Assembly: GCF_013408295.1 (NCBI RefSeq)
Contig: NZ_JACBYQ010000002.1
Location: 930,001 to 994,000, forward strand
DNA from: Psychromicrobium silvestre
GTDB lineage: Bacteria; Actinomycetota; Actinomycetes; Actinomycetales; Micrococcaceae
Direction of reading: 5' to 3'
DNA length: 64,000 nt
Shown: positions 50,602-62,625 of the stretch, piece by piece
How the letters are laid out: each line of letters starts with the position of its first letter
Numbering within the stretch: the first letter of the stretch is position 1
Program-made: the position numbers and the translations under genes
Notes under the pieces: generated by a model
Databases searched by the model: none
Told to the model about the DNA's origin: nothing
The model's input: the letters and a program-made list of their open reading frames with translations, nothing else

Positions 50602-52394
50602 GCATTTCCTCCGGCCACTTCAGCATGAATGCCCCAGGCCTCCAGCATGATCCGCATTGGTACCGCAAGGCGGTCTTCTATGAGGTGCTGGTGCGCGGGT
50701 TCAACGACGCCAACGGCGACGGTTCCGGCGATTTCTCGGGCCTGATCGAGCGGCTGGACTATTTACAATGGCTCGGTATCGATTGCCTGTGGGTGCCGCC
50801 GTTCTTCCAGTCACCGCTGCGCGACGGCGGCTACGACATCTCCGATTACTACCAGGTGCTCGACGAATTCGGCACCCTCTCCGACTTCCAACGGCTGGTC
50901 TCCGAAGCGCATGCGCGTGGCGTCCGGGTGATCATCGATCTGCCGGTCAACCACACCTCGGATCAGCACGCCTGGTTCCAGGCTTCGCGGGAGGACCCGG
51001 ACGGACCGTACGGAGATTTCTACGTCTGGAGCGATACCGACCAGAAGTATGAAGATGCCAGAATCATCTTCATCGATACCGAAGAGTCCAACTGGACCTT
51101 CGATCCGATTCGACGGCAGTTCTTCTGGCATCGTTTCTTCAGCCACCAGCCCGATCTGAACTTCGAGAACCCCAAGGTGATTGAAGCGATCTTCGACGTG
51201 GTGCGGTTCTGGCTGGACCAGGGCATCGACGGGTTCCGGGCGGATGCCATCCCTTACCTTTTCGAGGAAGAGGGCACCAACTGCGAGAACCTGCCCGGGA
51301 CCCATAAGTTCCTGCGCGATCTGCGTGCCATGGTGGAGCGGGAGTACCCGGGCCGTATCATCATTGCGGAAGCGAACCAGCCGCCCCACGAGGTGGTTGA
51401 ATATTTCGGCACCGAAGAGGAACCGGAATGCCATATGGCATTCCACTTTCCAATCATGCCCCGGCTTTTCTACGCCTTGCGGGATCAGAAAGCCGCTCCG
51501 ATCATTGAAACCATGAAGGATACCCCGGTCATTCCGGGCGGCGCTCAATGGGGTACCTTCCTACGTAATCACGATGAACTGACGCTTGAGATGGTCACCC
51601 CGGCAGAGCGGGAGGCCATGCTGGGCTGGTATGCCCCGGATGCCAGGATGCGCGCCAACGTTGGCATCCGACGTCGGCTGGCACCACTGCTGGATAACTC
51701 CCGTGCCGAGATTGAGCTCATCAACGCCCTGCTGCTAGCACTGCCCGGTAGCCCTTTCCTCTACTACGGCGACGAGATTGGGATGGGCGAGAATATCTGG
51801 CTCACCGACCGTGACTCAGTGCGTACCCCGATGCAGTGGACCCCGGATCGAAACGCCGGTTTCTCCAGCGCTGACCCAGGGAAGCTTTACCTGCCGGTCA
51901 TTCAGTCGCTTGTCTACCACTTCAACCAGGTCAATGTGGAGGCTCAGCAGGCTCATTCCTCCTCGCTGCTGAATTGGACCCGACAGATTCTCAGCGTGCG
52001 CAAGGCACATACAGCCTTCGGCCTCGGCGGTTATCAGAATGTGGAAGCCAGCGCGGAGCCGGTTCTTGCCTTCCTGCGGGAGCTGCCGGAAGACAATGTT
52101 GAGGGCGAGATGGGCGAAGCCGTGCTGTGCGTTTTCAACCTTTCGCAGCATCCGGTAGCCGCGCAGTTGCGACTCCCGCAGTATGCGGGCCGGGGCTTGC
52201 GGGATGTTTTCGGCGGCACTCCATTCCCGAGCGTGACGGACGACGGGTCGCTCACCCTGACCTTGGGCAGCCATGATTTCTATTGGCTCAGACTTCGCTC
52301 CGAAGCCTCCAATTTAGCGTCTCCCTTGACTCAATCGATGCCCATTATCGCGGCCCCGAGCGGACCGGCAGCCCCCGAGAGGTCTATGCCCTGA
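50598..52394 (+). CDS. treS: Trehalose synthase (maltose alpha-D-glucosyltransferase)
   Basis: This 598-residue GH13_16 enzyme interconverts trehalose and maltose. Diagnostic stretches are [38 protein letters not shown], nucleophile Asp216 in [21 protein letters not shown] (read in parts) and [12 protein letters not shown]. It delivers maltose to the maltokinase that follows. Its stop shares a base with the ATG of the mak::glgB fusion, a strong sign of coupled translation and perhaps of a TreS-Mak complex, as described in mycobacteria. Confidence 0.96.
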
Positions 52395-55300
52395 TGCCCA
52401 TCCTCAAGCCCAGTATTCCCGAACTGCTGCAGGACTGGTTGCCCTCCAAGCGTTGGTTCCCGGCCAAAAATAGGTCGGCCACCGATCCGGAGGTGAGCCT
52501 ACGTCGAGCGGGAGGGTTCCGGCTTGAGGATCCGGCGGGGGAGGTCGGGCTGGAAGTTCATTTGGTTGCTGTGCAATCGGCGGAGCGGGTGGACGTGCTG
52601 CAGGTTCCCCTGAGCTACCGGGCCGAGCCGCTGGTGGACGCCGAGGCACATCTGGTTGGTATCACCGAGCATTCGGAGTTGGGAAAACGCTGGGTTTACG
52701 ACGGCGTGCATGATCCAGTTTTTGTCGCGGCTTGGCTGGATTTCCTACACCGTCAATCAAGTGCCGCCGACGGGGTAACCAAAGCCTTTTCCAGCGCGGA
52801 GTTCCAGGCTTCCCGAGAGTTAGACACTACGGCCAGGATCAGGGTGGTGAGCGCGGAACAGTCCAATAGCTCGGTGATCATCAGGAACCGTGAACTACCG
52901 GTGATCCTGAAGTTCTTCCGAGTGCTGGCCGCCGGTACCAATCCGGATATCGAGGTCGGACGAGCGTTGACAGCCGCCGGTAGCCTGGACTCGCCAAGGC
53001 TGCATGGTTGGGCGCAGGGTAGCTGGCAGCTCAGCCCGGACCGGATGGTGGAAGGCAGCCTTTGCGTGCTCCACGAGTTTGTTGGCAAGGCACAGGATGT
53101 TTGGGAGCTTGCCGTCGGCAAAGCCAAGGAAGCTGTTCTGCTAGAAGAAAAACCAGGAGAAAAAGCAGAACAACCGGCGCAGGGCGATGAGTCCGAGCCA
53201 GCCAGCCAGCCCGTGGAAACCGGGCAGCCAGTGGAAACCAGCCACCCCGAGCAAACCAGCCAGTCAGCAGAGGCCGGAGCCGAAGATCGCGGGGACTTCA
53301 CGGCTGAGGCTGCCGAACTCGGTAGGGTAACCGCACGCTTGCACCGAACCATGCGCGAGGCTCTGGGGGAGACTCCTTTGGGTGAAGCGGAGCGCCAGGA
53401 CTTTCTCTCCACCCTGGCCGAGCGAATCCGTTGGGCCTGGTCTCAGGCTGGTGCCGCCGTCGGGCCATATCAGGCCAAGGTAGAGGCCCTGTTGGCAGGC
53501 TTGGAGCAGGTTGCCGATGTGCCTGCTCTGCAAAGAATTCACGGCGATCTGCATCTGGGCCAACTGATCCGTGCGGAACAGCCGGTGCGCTGGCTGGTGC
53601 TCGATTTCGAGGGTGAACCGTTGCGCCCGGTATCGGAGCGTTCCTTGCCTGACGTGCCGCTCAGAGATGTGGTTGGGCTGCTTCGTTCCATCGATTACGC
53701 GGCGGCTAGCGCCGGATTGCTAGGTGCGGAGGGCGCTGCTTGGGTGGCGAAGACAAGTGCCGCCTATCTCGATGGTTACCGGGATGCCGGGGAGTCGATG
53801 CTCGGTGGCGTGGACTCGCCGCTTTTCCACGCCCTTTGGCTGGATAAGGCGCTTTACGAGGTGGTGTACGAACTTCGTAACCGCCCGGATTGGCTTCCGG
53901 TTCCGGTCGCCGCAGTACGCAGGTTGTTGGATGCTACGGAAGAGGCCCCGATGAACACCGCAGTGAACCCGGCGAATGGGAAGCAGCCGATTCAGGTCGA
54001 TCAGGAGACCCTGGAACGCGTCGCGGCGGGGGCACATCACGCCCCGCACGCCGTTCTTGGCCCGCATTTCGACAATGCCGGGAACCTTACGATCCGCACC
54101 TTGCGGCATTTGGCCGAGAAAGTGCAGCTGGTCACCGCAAGCGGGAGCACCGAAATGCAGCACGAATACGGTGGTATCTGGACTGCGTTGGTTGAACCCG
54201 AACGGCCCGGACACGCCCCCGATTACCGGATTCAGGTCAGTTATCCGGATGGCTTTGAGGCGACCCTAGATGACCCCTATCGTTTCTTGCCAACACTCGG
54301 TGAGATGGATCTGCATCTGATTGGCGAGGGCAGGCACGAAGAGTTGTGGAACGTACTCGGTGCGCATCGGCATAGCTACCCCTCTCAGCTAGGCGAGGTG
54401 GACGGGGTGAGCTTCGCGGTCTGGGCACCCAACGCCCAGGCGGTGCGGGTCAAGGCTGATTTCAACAACTGGGACGGACGGCAGCATGCGATGCGTTCGC
54501 TGGGCTCCTCGGGGGTCTGGGAACTTTTCGTCCCGGAGGCCGAGGCGGGCAGCCGCTACAAATTCGACATCTTGGGCCGTTCCGGGCACTGGCAGGACAA
54601 GGCCGATCCGATGGCTTTCGGCACCGAGATCCCCCCGCTGACCGCATCCAGAGTGGTGCACTCCGAATACCAATTCCAAGATAGCGAATGGATGTCGGCG
54701 CGGGCTCAGCGCGATCCGCATAACTCCCCGATGAGCGTCTATGAGGTGCATCTGGGTTCCTGGCGGCCGGGACTGAGCTACCGGGACCTCGCTCGGGAAC
54801 TGGTTGAGTACGTCCAATGGATGGGATTCACTCACGTCGAGTTCATGCCCGTGGCCGAGCACCCCTTTGGCGGTTCTTGGGGTTACCAGGTGACCTCTTA
54901 CTACGCTCCGACCTCGCGCTTCGGGCATCCCGACGAGTTCAAGCATCTGGTCGACGCCCTGCATCAGGCCGGTATTGGTGCCATCATGGATTGGGTTCCC
55001 GCGCATTTCCCCAAGGATGAATGGGCCCTTGCTCAATTCGACGGCGGGCCGCTCTACGAACATTCTGATCCGAAGCTGGGTGAGCATCCCGATTGGGGCA
55101 CCCTGATCTTCGATTTCGGCCGCTCCGAGGTGCGGAACTTCTTGACCGCCAACGCCTTGTACTGGCTGGAAGTTTTCCACCTCGACGGCTTGCGGGTGGA
55201 CGCCGTTGCCTCGATGCTCTACCTGGATTATTCGCGTGAAGAAGGGCAGTGGAGCCCCAACCGACTGGGCGGCAGGGAGAACCTGGAAGCGATCTCCTTC

Positions 55301-56167
55301 CTGCAGGAGATGAGTGCGACGGCGTACAAACGGTCCGGCGGGATTGTCACCATTGCCGAGGAGTCCACTGCTTTTCCCGGGGTTACCGCGCCAACCGATC
55401 AGGGCGGACTGGGCTTCGGGTTGAAGTGGAATATGGGCTGGATGCACGATTCGCTGGCCTTCATCTCCGAGGACCCGGTGAACCGCAGCTGGCATCACGG
55501 CACCGCGACCTTCTCCTTGGTGTACGCCTTCACCGAGAACTTCTTGCTACCGATCAGTCATGACGAAGTGGTACATGGCAAGGGCTCCATGTTGCGTAAG
55601 ATGCCCGGCGATCGCTGGCAGCAGCTAGCCAATCTGCGCGCCTTCCTGGCTTGGCAGTGGGCGCATCCAGGTAAGCAACTGATCTTTATGGGCACCGAGT
55701 TCGGCCAGGAAGCCGAATGGAGCGAGCAGCACGGCTTGGATTGGTGGCTTGCCGATATGCCCCCGCATCGCGGCTTGCAGTTAATGGTCCGGCAGCTCAA
55801 TGAGATCTACCGAAACACCAGCGCGCTCTGGGAACAGGACAATGCGGGCGGTGGCTTCGAATGGATCAACGCAAACGACTCCGAGCACAATGTGCTCTCC
55901 TTCGTCCGCTGGGACAGGGCCGGACACCCGCTAGTCTGCGTGGTTAACTTCGCCGGAAACCCACACTATGACTATCGGGTCGGACTGCCCTTTGCCGGGG
56001 AGTGGCGGGAAGTGCTCAATACCGACGCTGAAGAATACGGCGGTTCCGGGGTCGGTAATGGTGGCCAGGTCCAGGCGGTGAGCGAAGGCTGGGACTCCCG
56101 GCCGGCGTCGGCATCACTGACCCTGCCCCCGCTCGGGGCGCTCTATCTGACGCCTGTCCGAAGCTGA
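52394..56167 (+). CDS. glgB: Maltokinase-branching enzyme fusion (Mak/Pep2 :: GlgB)
   Basis: The protein has 1257 residues. Residues 1-518 are a maltokinase: N-cap [18 protein letters not shown], kinase loop HGDLHLGQ at 383-390 and metal-binding DFEGEP. An acidic Glu/Gln/Thr/Pro-rich insert with PVET repeats lies at about 255-300. Residues 520-1257 are a full branching enzyme: CBM48-like region near 670-770 (DFNNWDG), [19 protein letters not shown], nucleophile Asp936 in [22 protein letters not shown] and [11 protein letters not shown]. Maltokinase makes maltose 1-phosphate for GlgE; GlgB adds alpha-1,6 branches to its product. An ATG at 53951 (residue 520) has GGAAGAGG five bases upstream and could also make free GlgB of 738 residues, the usual size. 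Confidence 0.93.
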
Positions 56168-56261
56168 GACGAAGCGGGCATTTGTAACGCCAGATGACCT
56201 AGGGTGACGCCAGGTGAAAACCTGCTGTGCCCCGATCCACGCGGGCTCCTATAGTCGGGGA

Positions 56262-57557
56262 ATGTTGCATTTCGGATGGTTTGTGGGCCACGGTTTCGGC
56301 GTTCAGGGTTGGGGAACTCCCGGTTATTCCTTGGGGTATGACTGGAAGCGCCCGCAGATCTATCAGGAAGCGGTCCGGCATTTCGAGCGTTCCGGACTGG
56401 ACCTGTTCATCATCGAGGATTCACTCACCGTTCCCGATACCTATGGCGGCAGCGCCGAGGTGTCCTTAGCCCAGGCTTCCTTCGCCCCCAAGCATGACCC
56501 GCTGGCCCTAGTGCCCTACTTGCTTTCGGCCACCGAGAATCTGGGCATCGTGCCCACCGTCAGCGCATCCTTCTACCCGCCCTTCACCGCGGCTCGCCTG
56601 CTGGCAACTTTGCAGCACTTCTCCGATCGGCAACTGGGCTGGAACGTGGTGACCTCCGGCAGCGATCTGGCCGCGCAGAACTATGGCCTGGATCAGCAGA
56701 TCGAACATGACACGCGCTACGAAAAGGCGGAGGAGTTCGTTGACGTGGTGCGCAAGTTATGGCGCAGCTGGCAGCCGGAGGCGATTGTCGAAGACCTCGA
56801 ACGCGGAATCTACGCCGATTATCGCAAGGTGCAACCGATTAACCATCAGGGTGAGTTCTTCAGGGTTCGCGGACCGCTCAATACCGCTCCGCTACCGGAG
56901 GAACCGGTTTTGGTTCAGGCCGGAGCCTCGCCGCGCGGTCGAGCCTTTGCGGGCGGCCACGCCGATGTTGCCCTGGCCCTGGCCAGAGGGGTGGAGGGCA
57001 TGCGCGCTTACCGCGACTCCATCCGGGCCGAGGCGGTGGCCAGCGGCCGCCAGCCCGACGACGTCAAGGTACTTTTCGTGCTCAAGCCCACCGTGGTTTC
57101 CTCCCGGGCGGAGGCGGAAGACCTGCGCGCTCAACGCGAGGCGCTCAGCCAACGTGACATCGATAGCCAGCTCAACTCGATTTCCTACCTATCGGTGATC
57201 GACTTCAAGAAGTTCGATCTGGATGAGCCGCTGCCAAAGCTCAGTACCAATAGCAATCAGGGGACCCTGGAGCATTTCGCTTCGGCCGCTCCGCAGGGCT
57301 CCACTCTGCGTGAGATTTTGAAGCGACGCAGCGGCGGCGCGGGAGACAGCATCATCGGTACCCCGGAGGAGATTGCCGATTATCTAGAGGAGACCGGTGA
57401 AGCGGTGGGCGGTGATGGTTTCCTGTTTTCGGGCTTCGTTGACCCCAGCACCGTGCACGGGGTACTGGACCGGCTGGTACCGGTGTTGCGCCGTCGCGGT
57501 TTGCTGCGTACCAGCTTCGGTGCGGGTGGGTTCCGGGCGAATCTGCGGGACTTCTAA
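56262..57557 (+). CDS. NtaA/DszA-type FMN-dependent monooxygenase
   Basis: This 431-residue protein belongs to the NtaA/SnaA/DszA/SoxA branch of the luciferase-like monooxygenases, which use reduced FMN from a separate reductase to open C-N or C-S bonds. Typical stretches are WKRPQIYQEAVRHFERSGLD, LSATENLGIVPTVSASFYPP, GWNVVTSGSDLAAQNYGLD and VLVQAGASPRGRAFAG. No reductase gene is adjacent. I choose ATG 56262 with CGGGGA upstream rather than GTG 56214. It shares its final base with the ATG of the next gene and begins a three-gene overlapping set with a lyase and a PLP enzyme. The substrate is unknown. Confidence 0.87.
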   Translation: MLHFGWFVGHGFGVQGWGTPGYSLGYDWKRPQIYQEAVRHFERSGLDLFIIEDSLTVPDTYGGSAEVSLAQASFAPKHDPLALVPYLLSATENLGIVPTVSASFYPPFTAARLLATLQHFSDRQLGWNVVTSGSDLAAQNYGLDQQIEHDTRYEKAEEFVDVVRKLWRSWQPEAIVEDLERGIYADYRKVQPINHQGEFFRVRGPLNTAPLPEEPVLVQAGASPRGRAFAGGHADVALALARGVEGMRAYRDSIRAEAVASGRQPDDVKVLFVLKPTVVSSRAEAEDLRAQREALSQRDIDSQLNSISYLSVIDFKKFDLDEPLPKLSTNSNQGTLEHFASAAPQGSTLREILKRRSGGAGDSIIGTPEEIADYLEETGEAVGGDGFLFSGFVDPSTVHGVLDRLVPVLRRRGLLRTSFGAGGFRANLRDF

Positions 57558-59065
57558 TGACTTGGGTTTTGGGGAACGCGCCTCTTTCGGCCCGGGACTT
57601 CGCCGCTCTCGTGCGGAACGCGGATCACCAAGTCGAACTCGATGATGCAGCTTGGAAACTCGTCCGCCGTTCCCGCGAATTGGTGGATCAGGTAGCGGCT
57701 TCGTCGGAACCCGTCTACGGCTTGAACACCTTGCTCGGTTCGGGTCGGAACACCCCGGTTTCTGCCGAGAAACTACTGGCCTATCAAGTTCAAGTGGTCC
57801 GCTATCACGTGAGCGGAATCGGACCGTTCTTGGATCGTGAGCAGAGCCGGGCGCTTATGCTGTCCCGATTGGTGGGTTTTGCCCGTGGGGGTTCCGGGGT
57901 ACATCCGGACACTGTCGAGTTCTACCGGCAACTCTTCAATCGCGGGGTGCATCCGGCGATTCCGCGTGATGGGTCGGTGGGGTCCTCGGACCTGACTCAG
58001 CTGGCCGCGCTAGCTAGTGTGGTGATTGGGGAAGGGCAAGCCTTCGACGCCGAGGGCGAGTTGGTACCGGGTGCGAGGGCGCTCGCAGCTGTTGGTTTGG
58101 AACCATTGGTACTGCGTCCGTTGGAAGGACTGGCGTTGATCAGCGCCAACTCCTATTCGGTCGGGCTAGGAGCACTCGAACTGCTTCGTTTGGATCGGCT
58201 GGCCGAGTTCGCTGATGTTGCTCTGGCCCTTTCCCTCGAAGCCATCGGACGTTATCAGGACAGTGCGGCGTTGAGCGCGTACTCGGCGCCCGTTGCGGAA
58301 GCGAGGCGACTGCCCGGGCTCGCTGCGAGTAGTTCTGCTGTCCGGGAATTGCTCGCGGGAAGCTATCTGCAGAACCCCAACCGCAGCTCAGGAGTGCAGG
58401 ATGCTTTGTCTTTCCGTTCGGCGCCGCAGACTCATGGAGCGCTACGTGCCCAGATTGAGGCTCTCGCGGAAGCTCTTGAGGTAGAGCTGGAGGGACGCAG
58501 CGATAATCCGTTGGTTGATGTGCCGAGCGGGAGATTGATTTCCGGTGGGAATTTCCAGGTCCTGCCGCTCGCGCTGAGTTTCGAATCCCTGCGATTGGCT
58601 CTGGGGCACCTCGGAATTATCAGTGAACGGCGGATTGCCAAGCTGTATCCGCCCCAACGGCTGATCAGGCAGGCCGCGCTCGCTGCCACAGAAGGGGTCC
58701 CCGAAGCGGAGGAGCTGCCGGGGCTGCTCTGGTACTCGGCGGCTGGATTACTGGCTGAATTGAAGGCGCTCGCTCAGCCGGTCACTCTCGGCGCTCCGAG
58801 TCTTTCGGACGATATTGAAGATCACTCGACGTTGGCACCGCTGGCCTTGCAACAGTTGCAGCGGTCGGTAGAAGTGGTGGAGAAATTGCTCAGCATTGAA
58901 GCCTTGACTGCGGCTTTCCTCATCTTGGCAGATACGGCCGAGCGTCCCCTGGGAGCGGGGACCGCCGTCGTCGTGCAGCAATTAGCCCCGCTATTAGCCG
59001 CCCGCCTACCCGCCAGCGCACTTGTCGACGAAGCGCGCAGTTTGTTGTTTGGAGGCATTGGATGA
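57557..59065 (+). CDS. HAL/PAL-fold aromatic-amino-acid-lyase-like protein lacking the MIO triad
   Basis: This 502-residue homologue of histidine and phenylalanine ammonia-lyases keeps Tyr54 in VYGLNTLLGSG, SDNPL at 315-319, ISGGNFQ at 328-334, ISERRIAKLYPP and EDHSTLAP at 421-428. It departs where the electrophile forms: residues 139-146 read GSVGSSDL where the family has GSVG-ASG-DL. The Ala-Ser-Gly that cyclises to MIO is thus replaced and one residue shorter. The usual Asn of INGT near 196 is Ser (ISANSYS). The codons there (57971-57994) are clean, with no frameshift. MIO-less members exist (ergothionase is the known case), so this may be another lyase chemistry. Neighbours: flavin monooxygenase before, CBS-like enzyme after, both overlapping. 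Confidence 0.85.
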   Translation: MTWVLGNAPLSARDFAALVRNADHQVELDDAAWKLVRRSRELVDQVAASSEPVYGLNTLLGSGRNTPVSAEKLLAYQVQVVRYHVSGIGPFLDREQSRALMLSRLVGFARGGSGVHPDTVEFYRQLFNRGVHPAIPRDGSVGSSDLTQLAALASVVIGEGQAFDAEGELVPGARALAAVGLEPLVLRPLEGLALISANSYSVGLGALELLRLDRLAEFADVALALSLEAIGRYQDSAALSAYSAPVAEARRLPGLAASSSAVRELLAGSYLQNPNRSSGVQDALSFRSAPQTHGALRAQIEALAEALEVELEGRSDNPLVDVPSGRLISGGNFQVLPLALSFESLRLALGHLGIISERRIAKLYPPQRLIRQAALAATEGVPEAEELPGLLWYSAAGLLAELKALAQPVTLGAPSLSDDIEDHSTLAPLALQQLQRSVEVVEKLLSIEALTAAFLILADTAERPLGAGTAVVVQQLAPLLAARLPASALVDEARSLLFGGIG

Positions 59066-60102
59066 CTATTTCCCTGCAACCGGAGCGCGAACTCCAGGCA
59101 CTCACCTCGGTGGGAAACACTCCCTTGCTCGAAATTCAGGGATTGGCGCTGCCGCAGCGAGTTTCGCGAAGTCGGGTGTTGCTCAAACTGGAGTCGGCTA
59201 ATCCGGGAGGTTCAATCAAGGATCGCACCGCGCTCAGCATGGTGCAGATGGCAGAGGCCAGTGGCGAACTGCTGCCTGGTGCCACCATCGTGGAGAGCAG
59301 CTCGGGAAACACCGGTGTTGGTCTGGCCCTGATCGGGGCGTTGACGGGGCATCCGGTACTGATTGTCACCAGCCAGGACATCTCCGCGGAGAAGCTCGAA
59401 GCCCTGCGGCGGTACGGTGCCGAGGTGATTTTCGCCGATTGGGAGGCCTCAGCGGACTCCGCGGAAAATCCACGTGCCGTGGCGGAGCGGATGGCAGCTC
59501 GGATCCCCGGAGCTTGGCGGCCCAAACAATTTGATAATGCCGCAAATCCGGACGCTCACTACCGGGGTACCGGGCCGGAGATCTGGCGTCAGACCGGCGG
59601 AAGGCTGACGCATTTCGTGGCTGCGGTGGGTACCGGTGGTACGGTCAGCGGCACCGGAGCTTTTCTGAAGGAAGCAAGCTCTGGGACGGTCCGGATAATT
59701 GCAGCCGATCCGGAAGGCTCCGTGTATTCCGGCGGTGAGCCGGGGCGAATCAGCGTCGATGGGGTGGGGAACACCTGGCCGAAGGAACTCTGGCCAAGTT
59801 CCTTCAACCCTGGGGTGGTGGACGAATTCCGTCGGATTGGCAACGGCGAGACTTATACGGTGCTGCACTTCCTGCGTAACCGGCAGGGGCTTTTGCTAGG
59901 CCCGTCCTCGGGGCTGGCGCTCGCTGCGGCGCGAAGGGTTGCGGCGGAGGCTCCCGATGGTTCGGTGATTGTTGCGATTGCTCCCGATACCGGCAGAAAC
60001 TATCTCAGCAAGGCCTTCAACCCACAGTGGCTAGCCGAGCAAGGCATCCAAATAGATCCCCACCTCCCATCCCTACCGAACCCAGCCACCCCCGCTTCTT
60101 AA
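59062..60102 (+). CDS. Cystathionine beta-synthase / cysteine-synthase-like PLP enzyme
   Basis: This 346-residue fold-type II PLP enzyme shows SVGNTPLLEI, PLP Lys53 in NPGGSIKDRTAL, substrate loop SSSGNTGVGLAL, GTGGTVSGTGAFLK binding the phosphate, and LLLGPSSGLALAAARR. The VDGVGNTWPKELWPSSFNP and RIGNGETY segment resembles the CBS/O-phosphoserine-type group more than CysK. It joins a thiol or sulfide to an activated serine. It overlaps the lyase by 4 bases, so the product or sulfur donor probably comes from that step. The CBS-type regulatory tail is absent. It ends just before the second copy of the 94-bp repeat. Confidence 0.88.
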   Translation: MTISLQPERELQALTSVGNTPLLEIQGLALPQRVSRSRVLLKLESANPGGSIKDRTALSMVQMAEASGELLPGATIVESSSGNTGVGLALIGALTGHPVLIVTSQDISAEKLEALRRYGAEVIFADWEASADSAENPRAVAERMAARIPGAWRPKQFDNAANPDAHYRGTGPEIWRQTGGRLTHFVAAVGTGGTVSGTGAFLKEASSGTVRIIAADPEGSVYSGGEPGRISVDGVGNTWPKELWPSSFNPGVVDEFRRIGNGETYTVLHFLRNRQGLLLGPSSGLALAAARRVAAEAPDGSVIVAIAPDTGRNYLSKAFNPQWLAEQGIQIDPHLPSLPNPATPAS

Positions 60103-60196
60103 CCCAGTTGTCCCATTGGGTGTGACCAGAGTGGCAGGTGTTACCGATTCGGCTGCACTTCTGTCACATCTGCACCACCGAGTGGGATAGCTGGGT
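60103..60196 (+). repeat. 94-bp dispersed element with inverted termini, copy 2
   Basis: This copy starts at the stop of the PLP gene and aligns ungapped (about 69 of 94 identical by hand count) with the minus strand of 34884-34977. The inverted ends are CCCAGTTGTCCCA and its near-complement TGGGATAGCTGGG. It sits between convergent genes and could work as a bidirectional terminator. Confidence 0.7.
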
Positions 60197-60209
60197 TAAG
60201 TTTTTCGGG

Positions 60210-60899
60210 TTAGGCCAGGAAGCCTCTGAGGAGTGCCGCGGTGCCTTCTAAGTGATCGGTGGCAACCGCTCTCGCCCTTTCGGCGTCACCGTGCAGAATG
60301 GCTTCCACCAACTCAAGGTGCTGTTCATTGGAGTGCCCGATATTGGCTGGGATCAACGGAATCCGGTCCAGTAATTCATTGATTTTGCTCCGAATATCCA
60401 CCACGGCATCCAGCAGCATCGCCGAGCCGGTGGCTTCCGCGATGGTCAAGTGTAAGCGCGAATCCAGTGGACGGTAGTTGGCCGCCTGCGCCTCGGAGGT
60501 GGCGTGTAGACAAGCGATCAGTTCCTGCCGAAGCTGCGGGCTGAGCGTGGCCTTAGCCGCTAGCTCGGCGGCTGCGGGTTCGACTACGCCGCGATAAAGC
60601 AGCACATCTTCCACTTCGGTTGCGCTCAAGGGGACCTTTCCGGAGGCGTGTAGGGGTGTGCTGCTGCTGACAAAATTGCCGCCATAGCGACCCCGTTGGC
60701 TCTCAATATAGCCAGCTTCTACCAGCGCCTTGAGCGCTTCCCGCAAAGTTGCTCGGGAGATTCCCAATGCCTCGGATAGCTCACGTTCCGGGGCTAGCCG
60801 CTCACCGGCCGGGAAAACTCCAAGCTTGATGTGTTTGAGCAGATGCTCCACTGTTTCTTCGAAGGCATTCCCCACTCGGACCGGCCTCAGTACCGTCAT
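60210..60899 (-). CDS. FadR/FCD-type GntR regulator
   Basis: This 229-residue protein has an N-terminal winged helix (APERELSEALGISRATLREA at about 38-57, with LVEAGYIESQRGRYGG). The C-terminal FCD effector domain has conserved Asp/His-type positions (SRLHLTIAEATGSAML, EQHLELVEAI). Metabolite-binding repressors of this class usually control adjacent catabolic genes. Start ATG 60899 has AAGGAGG at five bases. It is divergent from an amino-acid/amine permease and a glutamine-synthetase-like gene, which it probably regulates. Confidence 0.9.
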   Translation of the reverse strand: MTVLRPVRVGNAFEETVEHLLKHIKLGVFPAGERLAPERELSEALGISRATLREALKALVEAGYIESQRGRYGGNFVSSSTPLHASGKVPLSATEVEDVLLYRGVVEPAAAELAAKATLSPQLRQELIACLHATSEAQAANYRPLDSRLHLTIAEATGSAMLLDAVVDIRSKINELLDRIPLIPANIGHSNEQHLELVEAILHGDAERARAVATDHLEGTAALLRGFLA

Positions 60900-61019
60900 A
60901 TCTACCTCCTTAGCAGCCCTATTGTTTCATGCCCAGACCATTGAGAGCCTCGGAAGCCAGAAATATTCCATAAAAGTATTGACTTAATCATCGCCGTGAT
61001 TGAGGCTGACTGAAACACT

Positions 61020-61039
61020 ATGGACTGAAAACGATCCAT
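61020..61039. promoter_or_regulatory. Candidate operator in the regulator/permease gap
   Basis: ATGGA (61020-61024) and TCCAT (61035-61039) form an inverted repeat centred about 63 bases before the permease start. The arms are short; low certainty. The rest of 60900-61092 is AT-rich promoter-like DNA. Confidence 0.3.
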
Positions 61040-61092
61040 TAAATGAGTTGTCAATAACCTGGCTGTTCGCAATCACTAGGGAGACGAGTCTG

Positions 61093-62625
61093 ATGAGCAC
61101 TGAAGTAGAAGACGCCGATGCCGCCAGCCTGGCGGAGCTTGGCTATAAACAAGAGCTACATCGAGGCCTCTCCGGCTTCTCAAATTTCGCGGTCTCCTTC
61201 TCGATCATCTCGATCCTGGCGGGCTGCATCACCTCTTATGCCATCGCGCTGCGTTCCGGGGGGCCAGCCGCGATCAACCTGGGTTGGCCAATAGCCGGTG
61301 TTTTCGTGCTCTGCGTGGCGCTCGCCATGGCGGAAATCTGCTCCCGCTATCCCACCGCAGGAGGCCTCTACTTCTGGGCCGGACGCCTCGCCAAACGAAA
61401 TAAGCGGCAGTGGGCCTGGGGTGTGGGCTGGTTCAACTTCCTCGGTGAGATCGCGGTTACCGCGGCCATCGAGTTCGGTTGTGCCACCTCACTTATGGCG
61501 CTCGCCGCCCTGATCTGGGGCATCGAGCCAACGGCGCTGGCCACCTTCATCCTCTTCCTGGTCTTGATGGTGATCCACGGCGTGCTGAACAGCGTTGGCG
61601 TTACTCTGGTCAGCTTCCTCTCCAATGTCTCCGCCTGGTGGCACATTTTCGGGGTGGCGATTATCGTCGTCGTACTCTGGCTGCTGCCAACCAGCCATCA
61701 GAGCTTCAGCTGGACCATGACCGCCTGGCACAACGAAACCGGTTGGTCCTTCGCGCCCTATGTCTTTGTGATGGGCTTGCTGATGGCGCAGTACACCTAC
61801 ACCGGCTATGACGCCTCAGCGCACGTCGCGGAGGAAACCCGGAATGCCTCGGTGGCCGCGCCCAAGGGCATTGTGATGAGCGTGCTGGTTTCCATTATTG
61901 GCGGCTGGATTCTGCTCTACAGCCTCACGGCTGCCATCCCGGATAACAGCGAAGCAGGGCTTTCCGCGCTGCTTGCTTCGGATACCGGCCTGCCACCGGC
62001 GCAGATCCTACTGGACTCGCTGAACAACCCGACGGTGGCCAAGCTGCTGCTGGGTATTATCGTCGGTGCTCAGTTCTTCTGCGGCCTAGCCTCGGTGACC
62101 GCAAACTCCAGGATGAGCTACGCCTTCTCCCGGGATAACGCACTGCCCGGCTCGCGGATATGGGCCAAGGTCAATCCCCGCACCGGCACGCCAACCAACT
62201 CGATCTGGCTGTGCATCGGGGCTGCAGCCGTGCTTGCTAGCCCGGCACTGTTCAATACCACCGCATATCTGGCGGTTACCTCGGTTGCGGTGATTGGGCT
62301 CTATGTTGCTTATATCGTGCCGGTGTTCCTGCGCAGACGGAATAAGGACTTCGTCCCCGGACCCTGGAACCTAGGCCGTTGGAGTGCGCTGATTGGCTGG
62401 ATTGCAGTGGTCTGGGTGGTTTTCATCTGCATCCTGTTTGTGCTGCCGCCTGTCGCTCCGATTACCGCGGAAACCTTCAACTACGCACCTATTGCAGTGA
62501 TCGCGGTCGGAGTGCTGGCGATAGTGCTCTGGTATGCCAGCGGGAAGCGGAAGTTCATGGCCTCCAGCGAGGAGAGCGAGCACCTGACCAAGCAAGTCGA
62601 TGAACTATTGGAAGAGGGCAAATGA
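61093..62625 (+). CDS. APC-superfamily amino acid/amine permease
   Basis: This 510-residue protein has about 12 hydrophobic helices. The conserved N-terminal ELHRGLSGFSNFAVSFSIIS and AEICSRYPTAGGLYFWAGRL match the amino-acid/choline transporter group (GABA permease-like), as does the YTGYDASAHVAEETRNASV segment. Start at ATG 61093, with AGGGAG upstream; the frame is open to 61000, but that part is promoter sequence. It overlaps the GS-like gene by 4 bases, so import is coupled to gamma-glutamylation or ligation. Confidence 0.92.
   Translation: MSTEVEDADAASLAELGYKQELHRGLSGFSNFAVSFSIISILAGCITSYAIALRSGGPAAINLGWPIAGVFVLCVALAMAEICSRYPTAGGLYFWAGRLAKRNKRQWAWGVGWFNFLGEIAVTAAIEFGCATSLMALAALIWGIEPTALATFILFLVLMVIHGVLNSVGVTLVSFLSNVSAWWHIFGVAIIVVVLWLLPTSHQSFSWTMTAWHNETGWSFAPYVFVMGLLMAQYTYTGYDASAHVAEETRNASVAAPKGIVMSVLVSIIGGWILLYSLTAAIPDNSEAGLSALLASDTGLPPAQILLDSLNNPTVAKLLLGIIVGAQFFCGLASVTANSRMSYAFSRDNALPGSRIWAKVNPRTGTPTNSIWLCIGAAAVLASPALFNTTAYLAVTSVAVIGLYVAYIVPVFLRRRNKDFVPGPWNLGRWSALIGWIAVVWVVFICILFVLPPVAPITAETFNYAPIAVIAVGVLAIVLWYASGKRKFMASSEESEHLTKQVDELLEEGK

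Follow-up and report, generated by a model that had tools for sequence, protein, structure and literature searches.

We analysed a stretch of 64,000 nucleotides from Psychromicrobium silvestre (contig NZ_JACBYQ010000002.1, positions 930,001 to 994,000), in the following called the window. At its positions 56262–60102 the forward strand carries a trio of genes for a flavin mononucleotide (FMN)-dependent monooxygenase, a lyase with the fold of histidine ammonia-lyase (HAL) and a pyridoxal phosphate (PLP) enzyme. Comparison with related genomes supports well that the trio is a real, conserved operon. Judged from its sequence, it appears, at slightly better than even chances, to be a regulated sulfur-salvage operon with a new sub-family of lyases that lack the methylidene-imidazolone (MIO) triad.

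The monooxygenase gene (56262..57557, 431 residues) is followed by the lyase gene (57557..59065, 502 residues) and the gene of the PLP enzyme (59062..60102, 346 residues). At base 57557 the monooxygenase stop codon ends and the lyase ATG begins, and bases 59062–59065 are common to the lyase stop codon and the ATG of the PLP enzyme. The longest open reading frame of the monooxygenase begins at GTG 56214. We favour the start at ATG 56262, since a TATAGT hexamer is placed 7 bases upstream of it, a layout that recurs in relatives. A preliminary description of the window had given the same gene coordinates, which were correct on rechecking, and had called the three genes one translational unit. The overlaps indeed exist in the window, but this wording was too strong because they are not kept in relatives, where the spacing between adjacent trio genes ranges from about -41 to +159 bases (without locus L089, and depending on the starts chosen). 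These variable gaps rule out translational coupling as a conserved feature, while the term operon is well supported.

In a search of 396 genomes of the order, this type of monooxygenase was found in nine genomes, and the lyase gene adjoins it in all nine. The monooxygenase matches (E <= 1e-100) were split into those of the nine genomes, with at least 67% identity, and those of the others listed, with at most 48%. The lyase provided matches at E <= 1e-30 in 224 of the 396 genomes, most of them weaker; among the best 30 only the nine genomes have the monooxygenase next door. Since only these best 30 were fetched, the co-occurrence is based on the monooxygenase search. We also scanned a species genome collection with two peptide patterns, such that rarer relatives may be missed; this yielded 57 loci, 44 of them (L050–L093) with a trio-type lyase. 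Adding the nine genomes of the order search and subtracting two duplicates gave 51 distinct lyase loci, excluding L094–L106 (MIO-type or remote lyases) and L041–L046 (MIO-less lyases without the monooxygenase). All three genes were present in 49 of the 51 loci, counting one locus with a divergent PLP gene (L071) and one with an interrupted lyase frame (L089). The two incomplete loci are L053, cut off by the end of its contig, and L082, which has lost the monooxygenase. From the 49 complete loci and the nine monooxygenase genomes it follows that the homologues do not mostly occur apart. The gene order was monooxygenase–lyase–PLP enzyme in Micrococcaceae and PLP enzyme–monooxygenase–lyase in seven Microbacteriaceae loci, and the conservation in two gene orders rules out a chance neighbourhood. 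We infer the identity of these two groups (f1 and f19, respectively) from loci shared or grouping with named records. The monooxygenases of the trio loci are at least 61% identical to the window protein; in plasmid records the best monooxygenase match had 48.9% identity (among 15 of 1254 matches listed).

The lyase matched the Pfam model Lyase_aromatic with 390.6 bits and reached 322.9 bits on the HutH model, short of the cut-off of 539.15 bits. At the place where the MIO would form (codons of GSVGSSD, 57971..57991, forward strand) its loop reads GSVG-SSDL and lacks one residue compared with the Ala/Cys-Ser-Gly loop of HutH-type rows. This triad was found in 28 of 28 HutH-type rows of the alignment (27 distinct) and is absent from the window lyase, in agreement with the preliminary description; because of the missing loop residue the triad cannot form. 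The window genome possesses a second HAL-family copy on another contig (G000:C1:1269064) with the MIO-type sequence CSG and a urocanase-like gene nearby. Loop, HutH score and tree (see below) rule out that the trio lyase is a plain HutH duplicate.

A number of pocket residues are retained in the window lyase: Tyr54, His84, Gln281, Arg287, Phe333 and Glu421 correspond to HAL 53, 83, 277, 283, 329 and 414, where the HAL numbering and the roles of the pocket residues are assumed from general knowledge. Other positions are common to the trio lyases, the ergothionase-type rows and a further set of rows (L041, L045, L138), namely Asn at HAL 197, Leu/Ile in place of Tyr280, Val/Ile in place of Gln413 and, with few exceptions, Lys/Arg-Asp/Asn at HAL 63–64. 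The trio lyases differ from the ergothionase type at two positions. HAL 57 is Arg in all five ergothionase-type rows, four of which are actinobacterial, putative ergothionases. In contrast, the window lyase has Thr58 here, and Thr was found in every Micrococcaceae row (45 of 45, with 43 distinct) as well as in six of the seven Microbacteriaceae trio lyases. HAL 189 is Glu in the trio lyases and Asp in the ergothionase-type rows. The exchange of Arg for Thr suggests that the substrate is probably held otherwise than in ergothionase, and the loss of the MIO makes ammonia less likely to be the leaving group.

In the phylogenetic tree the trio lyases lie inside the MIO-less clade (support 100/99) and thus outside of the MIO-type HutH proteins. 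They are sister to the lyases of L042, L043 and L046 (support 91/82), while the ergothionase of known structure (6s7j) has too long a branch to be placed. With VIA-align, ergothionase was the best match of the lyase model. The best-scoring named models were those of HutH, below their cut-offs, such that a transfer of the name would presumably hide the lyase. Near the sister lyases of L042 and L046 we found hydratase-like proteins for which the thiourocanate hydratase model gave higher scores than that of HutU; they pass the HutU cut-off too, and none passes the cut-off for thiourocanate hydratase. The L042 lyase also adjoins thiohydantoin-desulfurase-like, betaine-type ATP-binding cassette (ABC) transporter and ErtE-like genes. 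L042–L044 and L046 are therefore probable actinobacterial loci for the breakdown of the antioxidant ergothioneine. In plasmid records, none of the L042 lyase matches listed (40 of 845) reached 41% identity, and most of them carried the label histidine ammonia-lyase or no annotation.

Since several MIO-less groups were seen in Actinobacteria, the earlier view of a single well-known MIO-less member was too narrow. A third group of MIO-less lyases is found at L045:4108-10089, together with L041 and L138; from reading their sequences by eye, we take the neighbours of the L045 lyase to resemble meta-cleavage genes for an aromatic acid. L115 (G465), from another actinobacterial family, is a MIO-less HAL-fold protein with the loop ASD and Arg at the His83 position. 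It deviates at several of the positions HAL 63–64, 197, 280 and 413 and possibly has yet another activity. L104, L105 and L106, read as proteins of some 365 residues, have a loop that looks MIO-less (LGSTGLS-DL), but an extended segment of the HAL core is missing from them in the alignment.

All three family assignments of the preliminary description were borne out, that of the lyase by the Lyase_aromatic match. The monooxygenase scored 367.5 bits on TIGR03860 (cut-off 279.7), which places it in the NtaA/DmoA family. Its closest solved relatives are dimethyl-sulfide monooxygenase (DmoA) and DszA, with bit scores of 253 for DmoA, 248 for DszA and 214 for YtnJ. The third protein is a fold-II PLP beta-synthase that resembles cystathionine beta-synthase (CBS) and cysteine synthase, with PALP (222.8 bits) as sole Pfam match and Rv1077 as closest solved relative. 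It remained below the curated cut-offs for CBS (315 of 510 bits), CysKM (274 of 344) and CysK (246 of 351), as well as below those of the SbnA (218 bits) and cysteate-synthase (211 bits) models. The motif GGS(I/A/S)KDR with its Lys was present in 10 of 10 trio PLP proteins printed, and SGNTG and GTGGT in most of them; the window enzyme carries all three. The window genome has four cysKM-type matches; the PLP enzyme is one of these, and another is a CysK above the cut-off. Such a CysK was found elsewhere in seven of seven genomes searched, with a further longer-frame homologue in six of the seven. The trio PLP enzyme is therefore not the housekeeping one, and the separate CysK together with the missed cut-offs rules out an ordinary CysK or CBS as its main reading. 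We also observed a further cysteine-synthase-like match with an in-frame TGA at the extreme end of a contig (G000:C2:4-843).

Upstream of the trio we found a likely activator site, a direct repeat whose 13-base units recur with a period of 20 bases (TRACN5RTGA-N7-TRACN5RTGA, 56185..56217, forward strand) that ends 44 bases before ATG 56262. The TATAGT hexamer (56250..56255, forward strand) is a probable -10 element, and its position 7 bases before the ATG suggests a leaderless messenger. A scan of positions 56000–61100 with a sigma-70-type consensus found no promoter. When allowing up to one mismatch, the direct repeat has its sole match in the window genome at this site; a match was found upstream of the trio in six of six genomes searched, and the reversed-pattern control gave none. 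With 0–3 mismatches the repeat occurs in 39 of 42 Micrococcaceae loci, ending 44–45 bases before the ATG in 34 of the 39, and is absent from L083, L084 and L089, compared to matches with up to 3 mismatches in 17 of 8400 shuffled sequences. These counts are not independent tests, since the pattern was derived partly from the same loci and the loci are related. TAnnnT hexamers occupy the place of TATAGT in most of the 42 relatives. Overall, the repeat element and an apparently leaderless start seem to be conserved in Micrococcaceae.

Natural variants provide further hints. In Arthrobacter cavernae (L082:9700-10300) the monooxygenase gene appears to be cleanly lost, such that the promoter repeat leads straight into the lyase gene. 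The best monooxygenase match in this genome has only 35% identity, and the catalytic Tyr54 of the lyase is replaced by His. This single case hints that a lyase left without its monooxygenase does not stay functional. In Amnibacterium (L091) the trio lyase is strongly diverged, with the longest branch of all trio lyases and Arg at HAL 57, and the genome has no HutU match. A HutU match was also absent from a trio-bearing Cryobacterium metagenome-assembled genome (L086), which may be incomplete.

In relatives, genes of sulfur metabolism recur next to the trio. Among 18 loci compared, the MetZ family (with MetZ itself in L062) was found in seven, one of them from Microbacteriaceae (L087), a rhodanese-domain family (136 residues in L062) in five, and a family of SulP-type permeases, whose L066 member is SulP-like and below the model cut-off, in four. 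The Microbacteriaceae trio loci hold a GNAT protein (seven of seven), a full polar-amino-acid ABC transporter set (five of seven) and a sulfurtransferase homologue (four of seven); the L047 copy of the latter scores best on 3-mercaptopyruvate sulfurtransferase, below the cut-off. L091 has another rhodanese-domain protein. For the binding protein of L047 the search of solved structures returned amino-acid binders of many kinds and no clear ligand.

From family knowledge we infer the reaction types, the order of the steps and the end product of the putative route. The lyase would catalyse an alpha,beta-elimination that needs no MIO, with a sulfur-bearing amino-acid derivative as substrate, the retained Tyr54 as base and Arg287 and Glu421 of the HAL pocket assisting. 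Given the loss of the MIO, the leaving group would be better than ammonia, e.g. trimethylamine from a betaine. The FMN monooxygenase might use reduced flavin and O2 to break a C-S bond, either in the substrate or in the product of the lyase, thereby releasing sulfite, sulfide or a small thiol. Finally, the PLP enzyme may join the recovered sulfide or thiol to a serine or homoserine ester. In its full form this would be an undescribed aerobic route, in which sulfur of a natural betaine or amino acid is obtained by a new MIO-less elimination, oxygenolytic C-S cleavage and recapture within one regulated operon, the lyase having gained its new activity from an ergothionase-type ancestor. We hold this complete scheme to be plausible at somewhat less than even chances. 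Taken by itself, our single best guess at a substrate, a thio-histidine betaine akin to ergothioneine, is rather improbable.

Several observations weigh against a sulfur-salvage operon of this kind. None of the sulfur-related neighbours mentioned above adjoins the window's own copy of the trio, which follows glg genes and precedes a GntR/permease/glutamine-synthetase-like group. A sulfur-salvage route, as proposed in the preliminary description, is thus supported by the gene neighbours in relatives and not by those in the window. In Micrococcaceae loci MetZ lies on the strand opposite to the trio, as do the SAM-IV riboswitches detected in four of seven such loci scanned; the seven Microbacteriaceae loci gave no Rfam match and hence no SAM-IV, such that SAM-IV control of the trio is unsupported. 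The GNAT match also occurred in four of the 25 trio-free f19 genomes that were sampled, and the loss of the monooxygenase was seen in one genome only. In a Foldseek search the HAL of P. putida came first and ergothionase 6s7j in fourth place; the family of the lyase can therefore not be settled by its fold alone. No regulator of the direct repeat is known, and the pattern also matches elsewhere: G229 holds another two perfect copies, and G328 another three that have one mismatch each. By eye we take their neighbours to include no clear sulfur gene, except for one gene of the luciferase-like monooxygenase (LLM) type in G328. We therefore dismissed the idea that the repeat marks a larger regulon.

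The genes around the window trio have features of their own. Just upstream, at 52283–56167, a 1294-residue open reading frame fuses maltokinase and GlgB, with Mak_N_cap followed by GlgB_N, CBM_48 and amylase domains; L034 has a 1212-residue frame at the corresponding place. Downstream, at 60210–62625 and likewise at L033:8622-10004, a GntR/FCD regulator, an amino-acid permease and a glutamine-synthetase-like gene form a group that looks like a separate amine or amino-acid utilisation unit. The adjacent permease and GntR genes were dismissed as parts of the pathway, as they were not found near other trio copies at the thresholds used.

The closest rival to salvage from a related compound is that ergothioneine itself is degraded: the lyase would form thiourocanate and trimethylamine, the monooxygenase would strip the C2 sulfur to provide urocanate for the Hut pathway, and the PLP enzyme would fix the sulfide. 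The lyase signatures in common with 6s7j, the VIA-align match and the sister lyases in ergothioneine-related-looking loci are in agreement with this idea, and HutU-like genes were found in nine of nine trio genomes in one search and in 16 of 18 in another. However, the two genomes without a HutU (urocanase) match, from Amnibacterium and Cryobacterium, carry the trio nonetheless, HAL 57 and 189 are Thr and Glu rather than Arg and Asp, and neither a thiourocanate hydratase nor other partner genes of the sister loci were seen beside the trio. In the Microbacteriaceae loci the transporter belongs to the polar-amino-acid type, unlike the betaine-type transporter of L042. EgtD was detected in one of 15 genomes searched and one of nine with the trio, such that most trio genomes would lack an ergothioneine supply of their own. 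We therefore regard plain ergothioneine as unlikely, and give at least the same odds to a related thio-histidine betaine or a different sulfur amino acid. The ergothioneine-like substrate of the preliminary description is still a fair lead, since the sister lyases adjoin thiourocanate-hydratase-like and thiohydantoin-desulfurase-like genes. PMC13405746 refers to papers on the ergothionase structure (Maurer 2019) and on ergothioneine sulfonate (Yan 2022).

A little less likely still is salvage of S-modified cysteine in the manner of the Bacillus scm and ytn clusters, with acetylation by the GNAT protein, C-S cleavage by the monooxygenase and reuse of the thiol, where the lyase would open a particular adduct. 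According to PMC9706529 and PMC12757645, Bacillus subtilis salvages S-modified cysteine through its scm (yxe) and ytn clusters with an acetyltransferase, a monooxygenase and a deacetylase, and the polar-amino-acid ABC transporter, GNAT protein and LLM monooxygenase of the Microbacteriaceae loci are parts of the scm cluster. GNAT and monooxygenase occur together in all seven Microbacteriaceae trio loci. Yet no M20-type deacetylase was found among the trio neighbours selected for family searches, and the GNAT protein is missing from the Micrococcaceae loci compared, with a homologue of 51–55% identity elsewhere in three of three such genomes checked. 2SL, the published replacement lyase in S-modified cysteine salvage, presumably belongs to another superfamily than HAL, which counts against this rival as well. 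A biosynthetic or detoxifying operon that is merely located near sulfur genes is quite improbable. Since 2,3-diaminopropionate and cysteate are also made by enzymes of the fold-II PLP type, the PLP enzyme could build a non-protein amino acid, in agreement with its SbnA and cysteate-synthase scores, both below cut-off, and the window trio's own neighbours are not sulfur genes. Against this stands the recurrence of sulfurtransferase, importer and MetZ associations in differing contexts.

The value of the trio lies in mapping MIO-less members of the ammonia-lyase fold, which are so far poorly covered: it adds a well-defined sub-family with fixed partners, a clean phylogenetic place and a conserved promoter. 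It also yields a short list of substrates and a direct growth test for possible organic-sulfur acquisition in related actinobacteria. The preliminary description knew of no operon of such composition, and we found none in the literature either, which is weak evidence of novelty as titles and beginnings of abstracts were covered and subscription papers were largely outside the scope.

Compared to known systems, the trio combines familiar parts in a different setting. Its monooxygenase shares the NtaA/DmoA family with the DszA, DmoA and CmoO types and is not clearly nearer to any one of them. The PLP enzyme has a catalytic domain like that of the mycobacterial CBS Rv1077 but lacks the CBS regulatory domain and stays below the CBS and CysK cut-offs. 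With the ergothionase of Treponema denticola (6s7j), an ergothioneine trimethylamine-lyase, the trio lyase shares the HAL fold without MIO triad at about 28% identity, from which it differs by Thr for Arg at HAL 57, by Glu for Asp at HAL 189 and by the absence of the pathway partner genes beside it. A MIO-less lyase is likewise common to L042–L044 and L046, where its neighbours (in L042 and L046) are, unlike in the trio, not a monooxygenase or a PLP synthase. The scm and ytn clusters have the FMN monooxygenase and the acetyltransferase in common with the trio loci, and scm the ABC transporter too; where these clusters hold a deacetylase, the trio has a MIO-less lyase and a CBS-like enzyme.

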